This document shows positions 49,016-52,062 of a stretch of DNA of 64,000 nucleotides, one piece after another. The stretch covers positions 744,001 through 808,000 of the forward strand of contig NZ_CP023067.1 in assembly GCF_002288525.1 (NCBI RefSeq). The letters run 5' to 3'. The notes below the pieces were generated by a model. The model had not been told where the DNA came from, did no database searches, and saw only the letters and a list, made by a program, of their open reading frames with translations. The DNA comes from Sinorhizobium sojae CCBAU 05684. Lineage in GTDB: Bacteria; Pseudomonadota; Alphaproteobacteria; Rhizobiales; Rhizobiaceae. Made by a program: the position numbers and the translations under genes. The stretch's first letter is position 1. Each line of letters opens with the position of its first letter.

Positions 49016-49375
49016 CGCAGTAACGGAATGCCTCCGCCCTTTTCGGACATGTGCCAACGCCAAAGCGAGTTCCGCCTGGCGCTCAAACTCCTTGGCACCG
49101 GCTGCGCTATCGGTGAGCGCGATGCCGGCGCTGAGGGAGAGCCGTTTAGGGTGGATGCGCGGCCCGGCGTGATCCGCAGGTCGGTGAAGGTTTGTCGGAT
49201 GCGCCGCGATCATCTCGGCATTGCCGGCGTCGACGTCGTTGCAGACGATGACGAACTCCTGCGGGCTGCACTAGAGATGTCGCGCGGAGATGCTTGCCGA
49301 AAGACGATGCCCCGCTGAACGCTCGTTCTGCACGGCATTTTCCGCAACGGGCTCATACTTGACTATCGGAGTCAT
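49016..49375 (-). pseudogene. Decayed GGDEF (diguanylate cyclase-like) domain remnant
   Basis: On the minus strand one frame reads GGDEF-domain sequence from an AGHRLSASISARHL stretch (compare GH..GD..L..A..L), through an in-frame TAG at 49273-49271, then SPQEFVIV where GGDEFVVL is expected, and finally RLSLSAGIALTDSAAGA and ELALALAHVRKGRR (compare S.GIA and AD.AL..AK..GRN). The signature GG is SP, the N-terminal half is missing and there is a nonsense codon. It cannot be a working cyclase. A relic left by deletion is inferred. Confidence 0.72.
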
Positions 49376-49398
49376 CAATAATATGCCGCCTCGCTAAA

Positions 49399-52062
49399 AT
49401 GGAGGCGATCTTGGGGGCTGGGGATATTTCGAATTTTCCGTTTCGAGTTGCGGCGCTGGCCGCCCGAGGCGAGCAGCCGGCGCTCCTCCTTCCGGGCGGG
49501 CGATCCGTCACCTATCGGGAACTGGCCGAGCGCGTCGATCGCCTGGCGTCGCTGTGGCGCGGCAGGCGCGGCCTGGTGATGTTGGAGACGGATCTATCGG
49601 AGCACGCGGTCATCGGCTATCTCGCAGCGCTTGAGGCAGGCCATGTGGTCGCTATGCAGACACCCTGCGGCGCAGAGGCAGACAGCGCCGTCTTCAGGCC
49701 GGACTATCGCTATCGCCGTTTCGACGGGCGCTGGCGTATCGAGCGGCTCGAGGGCGACGCAACGGGCCCTCATCCCGATCTTGCCGTCCTGCTTTCGACC
49801 TCGGGCAGCACCGGACAGGGCAAGAGCGTCCGCCTCTCCGCGGCCAATCTTTGCTCCAATGCACGGGCGATCGCCGAATATCTCGGTCTCACGGCGGCGG
49901 ACAGGGCCTGCCTCATCCTTCCGCTTCACTATTCCTACGGGCTCTCCGTCCTGAACGCCCATCTCTCTGTGGGTGCCAGCGTCTACTTGCCGGGCGGCTC
50001 CATTCTCGACGAGGGCTTCCTCGACGGGCTTGCCGAAAGCGGCAGTTCCAATCTTTCGGGCGTTCCCTATTCCTACGAGCTCCTGGAGAAGGTGGGGTTT
50101 CGCGGGCGCCTCTTTCCGCAGCTACGCTTCATGACGGTCGCCGGCGGTCGCCTGGCGCCCGAGACCGTTCGCCTCTACAACGAACATCTCACCGCATGCG
50201 GTGCCTCTCTGTTCGTGATGTACGGTCAGACGGAGGCGACCGCCCGCATGGCCTATATGCCGCCGGAGCATCTTCGTGGCCGGGAGGACCGTATCGGCAT
50301 TGCAATCCCGGGCGGCAGCCTGGCGATCGAGGATGAAGAGGGCCGCCTGATCTCCGGCGTGGATCAGCCGGGGGAACTCGTCTACCGCGGTGCGAATGTG
50401 ATGATGGGTTACGCCCAATCCCGGGACGACCTCGCGCGCGGCGCCGAGCTTGGCGTACTCAGGACCGGCGATCTCGCCATTCGGGATGCGGACCGATTTT
50501 TCCGTATCGTCGGGCGAAGCAAGCGCATCTCGAAAATTGCCGGCCTTCGAATCGGGCATGACAGCCTGGAAGCTGCGCTCGAGCGCCACGGCATTTCCGC
50601 TGCCGTCACCGGCGACGATGCGGAAATCCTTGCCCATTACGTCGGCGCATGCGGCTCGGAGGCCGTTCGCCGGCTTCTCGTCGCCGCAAGCGGCCTGACT
50701 CTGCTGCAAGTCAAAGCCTCACGCATCGACGCGCTGCCGCGATTGCCGTCGGGCAAGATCGACTATCAGGCGCTACGCAATCGCGCGGGCAGGGCGGATG
50801 CGGTTCCTGAAAGCAAAGGCGTACAGGAGCTGTTCGAACAGCTGTTCTTTCCGGCAAGGATTCGGGCGGAGGACAGCTTTCTGTCGCTCGGCGGCGATTC
50901 GCTCCGCTTCGTGCAATTGTCGCTCGGCCTCGAGAAGATCCTCGGCGAGGTGCCGGACAAATGGGAACGGATGCCGGTCCGGGACTTGGCGGCCTTGGAC
51001 CGAAGCGACAGCAAACGCCCGCAGATCGGTATCGATCTGGTCATCCGCGCGCTGGCGATCTTGCTGGTCGTAGTCCATCACGAAACCCTTTGGCCGATAC
51101 CGGGCGGGGCGGCCGCGATGGTCATTCTCGTTGGTTTTGGCTTCGCGCGGTTTCAGAGCGGCGCGCTCATTTCCGGTTCGCTCAAGCAGCTCTTGCGGCC
51201 GCTCGTCCATATTCTCGTTCCCTATTATCTGATCGTCGCAGCTTACGCGCTTGCCTGGGGCGACGTGCCCTGGGCTTCCGTCTTCCTCGTCGGCAATTTC
51301 GGCTTCGCCGACCCGGAGCGCCACAGCATGCTGCCCTATCTCTACTGGTTCATAGAGGCCTATTGCCAAATGCTGCTGGTTTTTGCAGCCCTGTTCGCCG
51401 TGCCTTTCGTCCGGCGCTCGGCAATCGCCCGGCCCTTCGAAACCGGCATGGCTTTCCTGGCCGCAGCTCTTGCAGCCCGGCTCGTGCTGCCGCAATTCTG
51501 GGATATCGGCAATCGCCAGATTTTCACCTTGCCGTGGATATTCTATCTCGCAGCTATCGGCTGGTGCGCGGCGATCGCCGAGACTCGGCGCCAGCGGCTG
51601 GCGCTGATGGTGGCGGGTACGGCGATCTTTCTCTTCTTCGGCATCTACAAGGGCGTCTGGATCGGCACCAAGATCAAGTATCTCCTGCAGATCCCCGTTC
51701 TTTGGGCACTCCTGTTCCTGCCGCGCATCCGACTGCCGCAATGGGGCGCGCGGCTGATCCTGCCGGTCGCCGCGGCAGGCTTTCACATCTACATCCTGCA
51801 CCGCTTCGTGCCGGAGCTCCTGCTCGCGCCGGCGCAGCCGCTGCTGTCGCCCATTGCCAATTCGCTCCTGGCGATCGTCGGCGGCATCCTGCTCGGCCTT
51901 GCGGCATGGGCAGCGCAGCGCCGGCTCTTCACCCGGCTCTCGCGCGCCCTAATTGGCCTTCGTCCGATGGAATGGGCGAACGCAACGCGGCCCTGGATTG
52001 CCTCAGACCGCCCACTTCTCGCCTTCGGTCCGCAGAAAGAAAACCAGGTCCAGCGTCAGTGA
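49399..52062 (+). CDS. Adenylation-carrier-membrane acyltransferase fusion protein
   Basis: An 887-residue, three-domain protein. Residues ~10-460 form an AMP-binding (ANL) adenylation domain: STSGSTGQGKS at 133-143, YGQTEAT at 275-281, RTGDL at 355-359, GRSKRISKIAGLRIG at 372-386, catalytic Lys in LPSGKID at 449-455. Residues ~472-532 are a phosphopantetheine carrier with attachment S501 (SLGGDSLRF). Residues ~545-850 resemble acyltransferase family 3 (OafA-like), nine to ten helices, with R550-x10-H561. It should activate an acid, load it on the carrier, and transfer it to a membrane or extracytoplasmic acceptor; the acceptor is unknown. TTG at 49411 with GGAGG 5 bp upstream is a strong alternative start. 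Confidence 0.85.
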   Translation: MEAILGAGDISNFPFRVAALAARGEQPALLLPGGRSVTYRELAERVDRLASLWRGRRGLVMLETDLSEHAVIGYLAALEAGHVVAMQTPCGAEADSAVFRPDYRYRRFDGRWRIERLEGDATGPHPDLAVLLSTSGSTGQGKSVRLSAANLCSNARAIAEYLGLTAADRACLILPLHYSYGLSVLNAHLSVGASVYLPGGSILDEGFLDGLAESGSSNLSGVPYSYELLEKVGFRGRLFPQLRFMTVAGGRLAPETVRLYNEHLTACGASLFVMYGQTEATARMAYMPPEHLRGREDRIGIAIPGGSLAIEDEEGRLISGVDQPGELVYRGANVMMGYAQSRDDLARGAELGVLRTGDLAIRDADRFFRIVGRSKRISKIAGLRIGHDSLEAALERHGISAAVTGDDAEILAHYVGACGSEAVRRLLVAASGLTLLQVKASRIDALPRLPSGKIDYQALRNRAGRADAVPESKGVQELFEQLFFPARIRAEDSFLSLGGDSLRFVQLSLGLEKILGEVPDKWERMPVRDLAALDRSDSKRPQIGIDLVIRALAILLVVVHHETLWPIPGGAAAMVILVGFGFARFQSGALISGSLKQLLRPLVHILVPYYLIVAAYALAWGDVPWASVFLVGNFGFADPERHSMLPYLYWFIEAYCQMLLVFAALFAVPFVRRSAIARPFETGMAFLAAALAARLVLPQFWDIGNRQIFTLPWIFYLAAIGWCAAIAETRRQRLALMVAGTAIFLFFGIYKGVWIGTKIKYLLQIPVLWALLFLPRIRLPQWGARLILPVAAAGFHIYILHRFVPELLLAPAQPLLSPIANSLLAIVGGILLGLAAWAAQRRLFTRLSRALIGLRPMEWANATRPWIASDRPLLAFGPQKENQVQRQ

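Follow-up and report, generated by a model that had tools for sequence, protein, structure and literature searches.

A single gene in the 64,000-nucleotide stretch of Sinorhizobium sojae CCBAU 05684 that we analysed (NZ_CP023067.1, positions 744,001 to 808,000; hereafter the window) encodes an 887-residue protein in which an adenylation (A) domain, a carrier or thiolation (T) domain and a transmembrane acyltransferase-3 (AT3) domain follow one another in one chain. We consider it very probable that this A-T-AT3 fusion gene serves iron acquisition, because its regulation points to iron in two phyla, because it has the FbpABC transporter as a neighbour in Actinobacteria, and because its probable orthologue in Sinorhizobium meliloti shows the expression pattern of iron genes. 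As a more tentative proposal, which may well be right but which we would not call probable, the protein would be a one-chain, membrane-embedded and iron-starvation-induced synthase of an acylated ferric-iron ligand that serves FbpABC or another importer. The initial annotation, made from the letters of the window, gave the reading frame exactly and named all three domains, and it saw the protein as a compact Dlt-like system for modifying an envelope polymer. The operator and the iron context described below are absent from it, and the neighbourhoods of homologues together with the regulation point to iron acquisition instead of such a setting.

The promoter of the gene carries a palindromic site of the form TGA-N9-TCA (Table 1), which is the consensus of the iron-responsive operator (IRO) of RirA (PMC6386902), and by this match RirA would be the regulator that binds in the window. 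The site overlaps a -35-like TTGACT, after which a -10-like element follows. Among representatives of Rhizobiaceae and allies, chosen with mutual protein identity below 85%, TGA-N9-TCA lies within 110 bp of the start in 20 of 27 (12 of 13 Sinorhizobium/Ensifer-like and 8 of 14 others), and dinucleotide shuffles of the 27 gave a mean of 0.49 and a highest count of 3 over 300 rounds. Across 35 distinct Sinorhizobium/Ensifer upstream sequences, which had been selected for TTGAC so that only the GTCA half is informative, this second half-site is 94-100% conserved and the bases between the half-sites are variable. Such conservation with a variable spacer is the picture expected of a palindromic operator. 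Exact copies of the 11-base pattern TTGACT-N5-AGTCA number two in the 6.1-Mb genome: this one, and another 50 bp upstream of a gene whose product is a binding protein of the ferrichrome/ferrioxamine type (249.9 bits against a curated cut-off of 374, with the next family at 59.6). A site with one mismatch lies upstream of the gene for a TonB-dependent siderophore receptor, of which a partial reading scored 176 bits against a cut-off of 223.5. The hemP family gave no match in the same genome, so that known RirA targets did not serve as positive controls for the operator.

Actinobacterial homologues show an iron box of another type. At each locus we took the highest-scoring match to a 19-bp IdeR consensus over the whole stretch retrieved (~13-22 kb). 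This best IdeR-like box falls in the gene's own promoter at 28 of 49 loci (2.0 expected) and just before the fbpA of a shared operon at 11 further loci; a second set gave 24 of 36 (0.87 expected) and, read from coordinates, 8 more just before fbpA. Most of the sites match 12-16 of the 19 bases, and that of locus L278 matches 18. Genes for FbpA, FbpB and FbpC, counted within ~9 kb and at an identity of at least 38%, stand beside the fusion gene at 22 of the 49 loci, all on the same strand, 14 of them directly upstream and 8 downstream. The 36 loci of the wider class have A, B and C at 19, B and C at 4, C alone at 4 and none at 9, and include convergent and divergent arrangements, sometimes with intervening genes. 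The pairing amounts to 41 of 85 actinobacterial loci, some of which duplicate one another (L073 and L237 denote a single place, and several are near-identical); the neighbourhoods were taken from 40 of the 61 family genomes and from 36 of the 48 genomes new in the class search. By resemblance to solved ferric-binding proteins, the adjacent FbpA is of the SfuA/YfuA type in Rhodococcus (7.6e-136) and of the 1y9u FbpA type in Pararhizobium (1.1e-141). Because two Fbp subfamilies and four arrangements (upstream, downstream, convergent and divergent) are involved, the pairing of gene and transporter seems to have arisen more than once. When all neighbours at 66 loci were clustered (L206-L235 and L249-L284; L198-L205, where FbpABC is common, were left out), homologues of FbpA and FbpB, at a looser homology than in the FbpABC count, appeared in 32 loci each. 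Next came open reading frames read as antisense to FbpC (23 loci) and ATP-binding cassette ATPases, FbpC among them (18 loci), and every other neighbour family reached at most 6 loci, one of these being a Fur-family regulator.

Expression data from S. meliloti agree with this context. In an array study, SMc00592, listed as a "hypothetical, transmembrane protein", has log ratios of -0.44, 1.47, 1.30 and -0.23, and the shape of this profile is the same as that of hmuV, hmuT, exbB, exbD and fhuF in the same data; the section concerned treats iron genes and, in the text available, does not discuss SMc00592 (PMC2848241). We regard SMc00592 as the probable S. meliloti orthologue by position, because SMc00595 is ndk (PMC2912261, PMC4941405) and the gene order there is AMP-binding, DinB, glutathione S-transferase, ndk.

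The domain layout is collected in Table 1. AMP-binding matches the window protein at E 2e-41 in Pfam, and the features that define ANL enzymes, namely the A3 loop, the A5 YGxTE, the A7 TGD, the A8 Arg and the A10 catalytic Lys, are all present. Among 155 distinct homologues (proteins under ~750-800 aa excluded), K453, S135, G139, E279, D358, R373 and H561 are each kept in all 155 and S501 and R550 in 154; ten residues separate R550 and H561, which gives the R-x10-H motif. The ANL motifs, the carrier serine and the Arg-His pair thus stand where they had been annotated, and this conservation indicates that all three active sites are under selection. The sole homologue without the carrier Ser is that of Rhizobium sp. 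Pop5 (L085, 7983-10592), where Ser501 is replaced by Leu; two IS30 transposase genes lie upstream of it, and this copy is possibly decaying.

The Pfam families expected from the initial annotation were recovered in part. AMP-binding was found outright, but PP-binding (E 0.0027, 18.4 bits against a cut-off of 20.8) and Acyl_transf_3 (PF01757; E 0.093, 12.2 bits against a cut-off of 31, with profile positions 6-319 of 326 covered) remain below threshold in the window protein. The AT3 call thus does not pass on this sequence by itself, and its C-terminal part searched alone matches no Pfam family at E <= 0.01. At the same E value, 44 aligned relatives contain AMP-binding in 44 cases, PP-binding in 34 and Acyl_transf_3 in 27 (best E 1.1e-10), C-terminal parts searched alone yield Acyl_transf_3 in 17 of 22 cases, and MBOAT is absent from the 5 Pfam families found in the 44. 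Structure prediction argues for the acyltransferase fold that had been proposed for the C-terminal half. A model of 330 C-terminal residues (mean pLDDT, the predicted local distance difference test, 87), with about ten long helices as read by eye, aligns by VIA-align with human HGSNAT (8vly_B) at Z 14.3 and 4.7 A over 275 residues and with GWT1 at Z 10.8, the next unrelated row standing at 5.8, where for helical proteins a Z below ~13 may be chance. Plain Foldseek gave no significant match for the AT3 model, and the HGSNAT fit comes from the VIA-align follow-up. The full-length model has a predicted template modelling score (pTM) of 0.51, and the docking of the domains was therefore not read from it. 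The idea that activation, tethering and acyl transfer at the membrane are united in one chain, already put forward for this protein, is supported by its sequence.

Table 1. The fusion gene, its domains and its promoter elements (positions in the window).
Feature	Position	Strand	Remarks
Operator TTGACTATCGGAGTCA (TGA-N9-TCA, RirA IRO type)	49359..49374	+	overlaps the promoter; ends 25 bases before the start codon
Probable -10 region AATAATAT	49377..49384	+	just past the operator; conserved A/T-rich block; putative promoter function
A-T-AT3 fusion gene	49399..52062	+	887 aa plus stop; exact bounds of the open reading frame
Adenylation (ANL) domain	49447..50796	+	residues ~17-466; K453 codon 50755-50757; Pfam AMP-binding, profile matches to A domains of nonribosomal peptide synthetases (NRPS) in the PDB, Foldseek
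Carrier (thiolation) domain	50821..50991	+	residues ~475-531; Ser501 codon 50899-50901; PP-binding in relatives, conservation of S501
Transmembrane AT3 domain	51031..51957	+	residues ~545-853; R550 codon 51046-51048, H561 codon 51079-51081

From the domains, the conserved catalytic residues, the operator-like sites and the neighbourhood, all of them read in sequences, we infer the following course of events. When iron is scarce, a repressor, presumably RirA in Rhizobiaceae and one of the IdeR/DmdR type in Actinobacteria, would leave the operator. The adenylation domain would then activate a small carboxylic acid, probably not an alpha-amino acid, with ATP, and the acyl group would be loaded onto the phosphopantetheine arm predicted at Ser501. 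Because the carrier is joined directly to the first AT3 helix, this arm should lie on the cytosolic side; the AT3 domain would take the acyl group from it and, much as HGSNAT does with acetyl-CoA, acylate a common metabolite on a hydroxyl or amine, either at the membrane or across it; as in HGSNAT, the transfer may end on the other side. The resulting ester or amide, diffusible or cell-bound, would bind Fe(III) and carry it to a transporter of the FbpABC/SfuABC type. About half of the actinobacterial loci encode such a transporter next to the gene, and the genome of the window encodes one at another place. Both the acid and the acceptor are probably common metabolites, because by eye no other biosynthetic gene recurs widely. 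A ligand for FbpABC, if the protein makes one, would account for iron uptake by such transporters where no siderophore is known. It would also add a biosynthetic logic that cluster-based genome mining would probably miss, and rhizobia would gain an iron system with a possible bearing on nodules and on competition in soil. In a bolder form, which we hold to be rather unlikely, the protein would represent a third siderophore route beside the multi-module NRPS and the NRPS-independent (IucA/IucC-type) routes. Here one membrane protein would activate a small acid, perhaps one with two or three carboxyl groups, malate or citrate for example, tether it and join it to a metabolite during passage through the membrane, so that synthesis and export would be one step and FbpABC the return path. 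If true, rhizobia, roseobacters, mycobacteria, rhodococci and other Actinobacteria would share an iron system reduced to "one enzyme plus one importer".

The adenylation pocket gives some indication of the acid. In a hand alignment to the GrsA motif, Ser179 faces Asp235 of GrsA-type amino-acid-activating domains, so the absence of this Asp, noticed at the outset, holds; position 179 is Ser in 34, Cys in 11 and Ala in 2 of 47 representatives. The substrate is probably not an alpha-amino acid. The pocket residue Arg283 is kept in 155 of 155 distinct homologues, and of 22 A-only or shorter relatives examined, 20 have it too. In the same segment the 3-methylaspartate enzyme VinN has a carboxylate-binding Arg. 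Arg283 may likewise contact a second carboxyl group of the acid, which is a hint and no proof because the A-only relatives mostly carry the same Arg. A substrate prediction from the pocket was dropped, as the motif YSYGLS...MYGQTEATAR is common to fused and A-only relatives and the best matches (oxalate, malonate and VinN) do no more than hint at a second carboxylate. Since the motif is shared, A-only relatives in capsule-like loci may use the same acid as the fusion proteins. Such relatives, with 35-46% identity, occur with genes for short-chain dehydrogenases/reductases and/or carrier proteins in L093 (Deinococcus sp. NW-56), L096 (Parabacteroides distasonis), L070, L072, L074 and L076-L078; these neighbours are annotated in L093 and L096 and were recognised by eye elsewhere, and the loci are capsule-like where annotated. 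Another A-only relative, on Rhizobium beringeri pRlX3 (L095, 1-15359), lies with an acyl carrier protein, two transketolase halves, FabZ, and a ligase and an acyl-CoA reductase that are LuxE/LuxC-like by context, close to a TonB siderophore receptor and fhuB; this is perhaps another unusual siderophore cluster.

Published phenotypes touch the proposal from two sides. In Mycobacterium smegmatis, MSMEG_3633-3636, with an SfuB-like permease, is required for growth at low iron in cells that make neither mycobactin nor exochelin, has orthologues in many mycobacteria, M. tuberculosis not among them, and is part of a route that the authors call siderophore-independent, according to the text available (PMC6684656). 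The transporter beside the fusion gene is a candidate to be identical with it. In Sinorhizobium fredii, loss of RirA raises the expression of fbpA, as the available text reports (PMC6386902).

A number of observations weigh against the readings given above. On the regulatory side, an IRO-type site was found in 22 of 39 when all proteobacterial representatives were taken (shuffled mean 0.72); when one mismatch is tolerated, the genome of the window has fewer sites of the operator pattern than of its reversed control (20 against 37), and by eye most of the other one-mismatch sites do not precede iron genes. Chromatin immunoprecipitation sequencing of S. fredii RirA gave ten peaks, and this gene is not among the names in the text of that study as available (PMC8822346). 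As to the transporter, FbpABC adjoins the gene in only 2 of 31 distinct proteobacterial loci outside Sinorhizobium, those of Rhizobium sp. Leaf453 (L056, L131) and Pararhizobium (L082), and in none of the Sinorhizobium loci examined. These 31 are L128-L144, L058, L059, L062, L063, L066, L068 and L082-L089, with the duplicates L056, L060 and L071 dropped; L130 and L132 lie on contigs under 8 kb, and L143 is a partial homologue. A single close FbpA was found in the genome of the window, ~460 kb away. Among Rhizobiaceae, 4 of 16 carriers of the gene have no match to the Pararhizobium FbpA (E <= 1e-40), and 3 of 9 mycobacterial carriers have none to the mycobacterial FbpA (E <= 1e-60). The pairing of the gene with FbpABC is not strict. 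Because some carriers lack a close FbpA, these must use another importer if the ligand proposal is right, and for the same reason we moved that proposal from evenly balanced to slightly below. No dedicated receptor or exporter recurs beside the gene. The label of siderophore independence in M. smegmatis fits bare Fe(III) as well as an unrecognised ligand. Finally, S. fredii HH103 has no activity in the chrome azurol S (CAS) assay, even without RirA (PMC6386902). A strong secreted chelator is unlikely in HH103 under those conditions if the strain carries and expresses the gene. Sinorhizobium genomes generally carry it, and any ligand would be weak, cell-bound or not made in this strain.

The foremost alternative is an envelope modification of the Dlt or OafA kind under iron control, in which the AT3 domain would acylate a lipid, a glycan or lipopolysaccharide on the outer face and so alter charge or iron capture. 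AT3 domains usually O-acylate glycans or lipids, the predicted fold is HGSNAT-like, and A-only relatives sit with carrier proteins in polysaccharide loci; the missing CAS activity of HH103 and the carriers without a close FbpA would also be accommodated. Against it, no glycan or lipid gene recurs widely, by eye, among the neighbour families found in at least 3 of the 66 actinobacterial loci, and one acceptor would have to be common to rhizobia and mycobacteria, whose envelopes differ greatly. That no glycan gene adjoins the fusion gene had been noted before, and none is adjacent to it in the window or in S. meliloti Ak57. We think this alternative unlikely, and Dlt-like modification of a polymer was dropped as the leading explanation because by eye no polymer gene recurs.

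The iron regulation would also suit an enzyme that tailors a siderophore, either the product of other genes or one taken up from others, by acylating it and so keeping it near the cell, and one homologue, that of Marinobacterium sedimentorum, has an EntS-like exporter of the major facilitator superfamily next to it (L058, 12805-14094, minus strand; NF007792, 180 bits, cut-off 324). By eye, however, neither genes for siderophore synthesis nor receptors of the siderophore type recur in the gene's neighbourhood, and the substrates of FbpA-type proteins are ferric iron or small ferric ligands, not large siderophores, which makes tailoring improbable. It is similarly doubtful that the link to Fbp is mere co-regulation and that the enzyme takes no part in iron capture and instead alters metabolism or lipids when cells are poor in iron. 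FbpABC is indeed not adjacent in Sinorhizobium and in nearly all other proteobacterial loci examined, but the four arrangements and two Fbp subfamilies suggest repeated pairing rather than one inherited neighbourhood. Phospholipid acylation of the Aas type was discarded, as the match to NF006386 is far below the cut-off (95 against 1221 bits), and a literature mention of "AMP-binding" (PMC12815270) proved, in the text available, to be an unrelated reference to cyclic AMP.

In the genome of the window and in all 32 other genomes of its genus that were searched, a homologue covers at least 850 of the 887 residues, one match containing TAG; the closest homologues are in Sinorhizobium/Ensifer, and the local gene order is that of S. 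meliloti. Further homologues occur on Rhizobium plasmids and in Pararhizobium, Shinella, Phyllobacterium, Rhodobacter, Leisingera, Marinobacterium and Bradyrhizobium. In a sample of the family, 25 of 247 genomes matched at E <= 1e-60 (own genus and a few partial matches counted), and in a sample of the class 9 of 385 matched, 4 over the whole protein, the genome of the window among them. The corresponding figures are 61 of 301 genomes for one actinobacterial family (E <= 1e-90) and 57 of 345 for the actinobacterial class (E <= 1e-80), some matches being partial in both. Existing public annotation, where present, reads "AMP-binding protein" or similar. Smaragdicoccus niigatensis (L073/L237) and the genome of L069 have three full-length copies each, two of them in tandem; the best IdeR-like site falls outside the promoter at L069 and wherever the copies are in tandem. 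At L255, L256, L257, L261, L280 and L281 a Fur-family regulator-like gene lies 0.5-6 kb upstream, and five of these six loci have a nearby lipoprotein that by eye resembles a zinc-binding protein, perhaps part of a zinc locus next door. Three homologues, at L230-L232, have an iron-box-like top site ~140 bp upstream and no FbpABC, and share a different neighbourhood with genes that by eye are sigma-factor-like and macro-domain-like.

Each domain of the protein is of a known kind. Full-text literature searches, covering few subscription papers, returned among the matches listed no account of the A-T-AT3 combination, of iron control over it in two phyla or of its pairing with FbpABC. The SfuABC/FbpABC transporters, MSMEG_3633-3636 included, are of the same type as the neighbouring transporter, and no synthase partner is mentioned for them in the text available (PMC6684656). 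Epsilon-poly-lysine synthetase and PosA likewise have A, T and a membrane-bound C-terminal part in one chain; as described in the available text, the six membrane helices of this part form three pairs separated by large soluble regions, and the enzymes polymerise basic amino acids (PMC10522769). The window protein differs from both by its AT3 fold and by the lack of the Asp for an alpha-amino group. Aas, the acyl-[ACP]-phospholipid O-acyltransferase (ACP, acyl carrier protein), also combines an ANL part with an acyltransferase in one chain, and it is the ANL part of the window protein that NF006386 matches. Its acyltransferase is of the PlsC type, and it uses fatty acids and a separate ACP. 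With OafA, OafB, HGSNAT and YeiB, which are AT3 or transmembrane acyltransferases, the protein shares the R-x10-H motif and the HGSNAT-like model fold. Known members of the AT3, HGSNAT and YeiB groups use acyl-CoA, whereas here a carrier domain is fused in front and is the likely donor. The Dlt system (DltA, DltC, DltB and DltD) would resemble it in the activation of an acid by ATP, the carrier arm and the outward transfer of the acyl group through the membrane. Its components are separate proteins, DltB is an MBOAT and not an AT3 protein, and DltA takes D-alanine, whereas the protein of the window has Ser179 at the Asp position and is accompanied by iron control instead of teichoic-acid genes.

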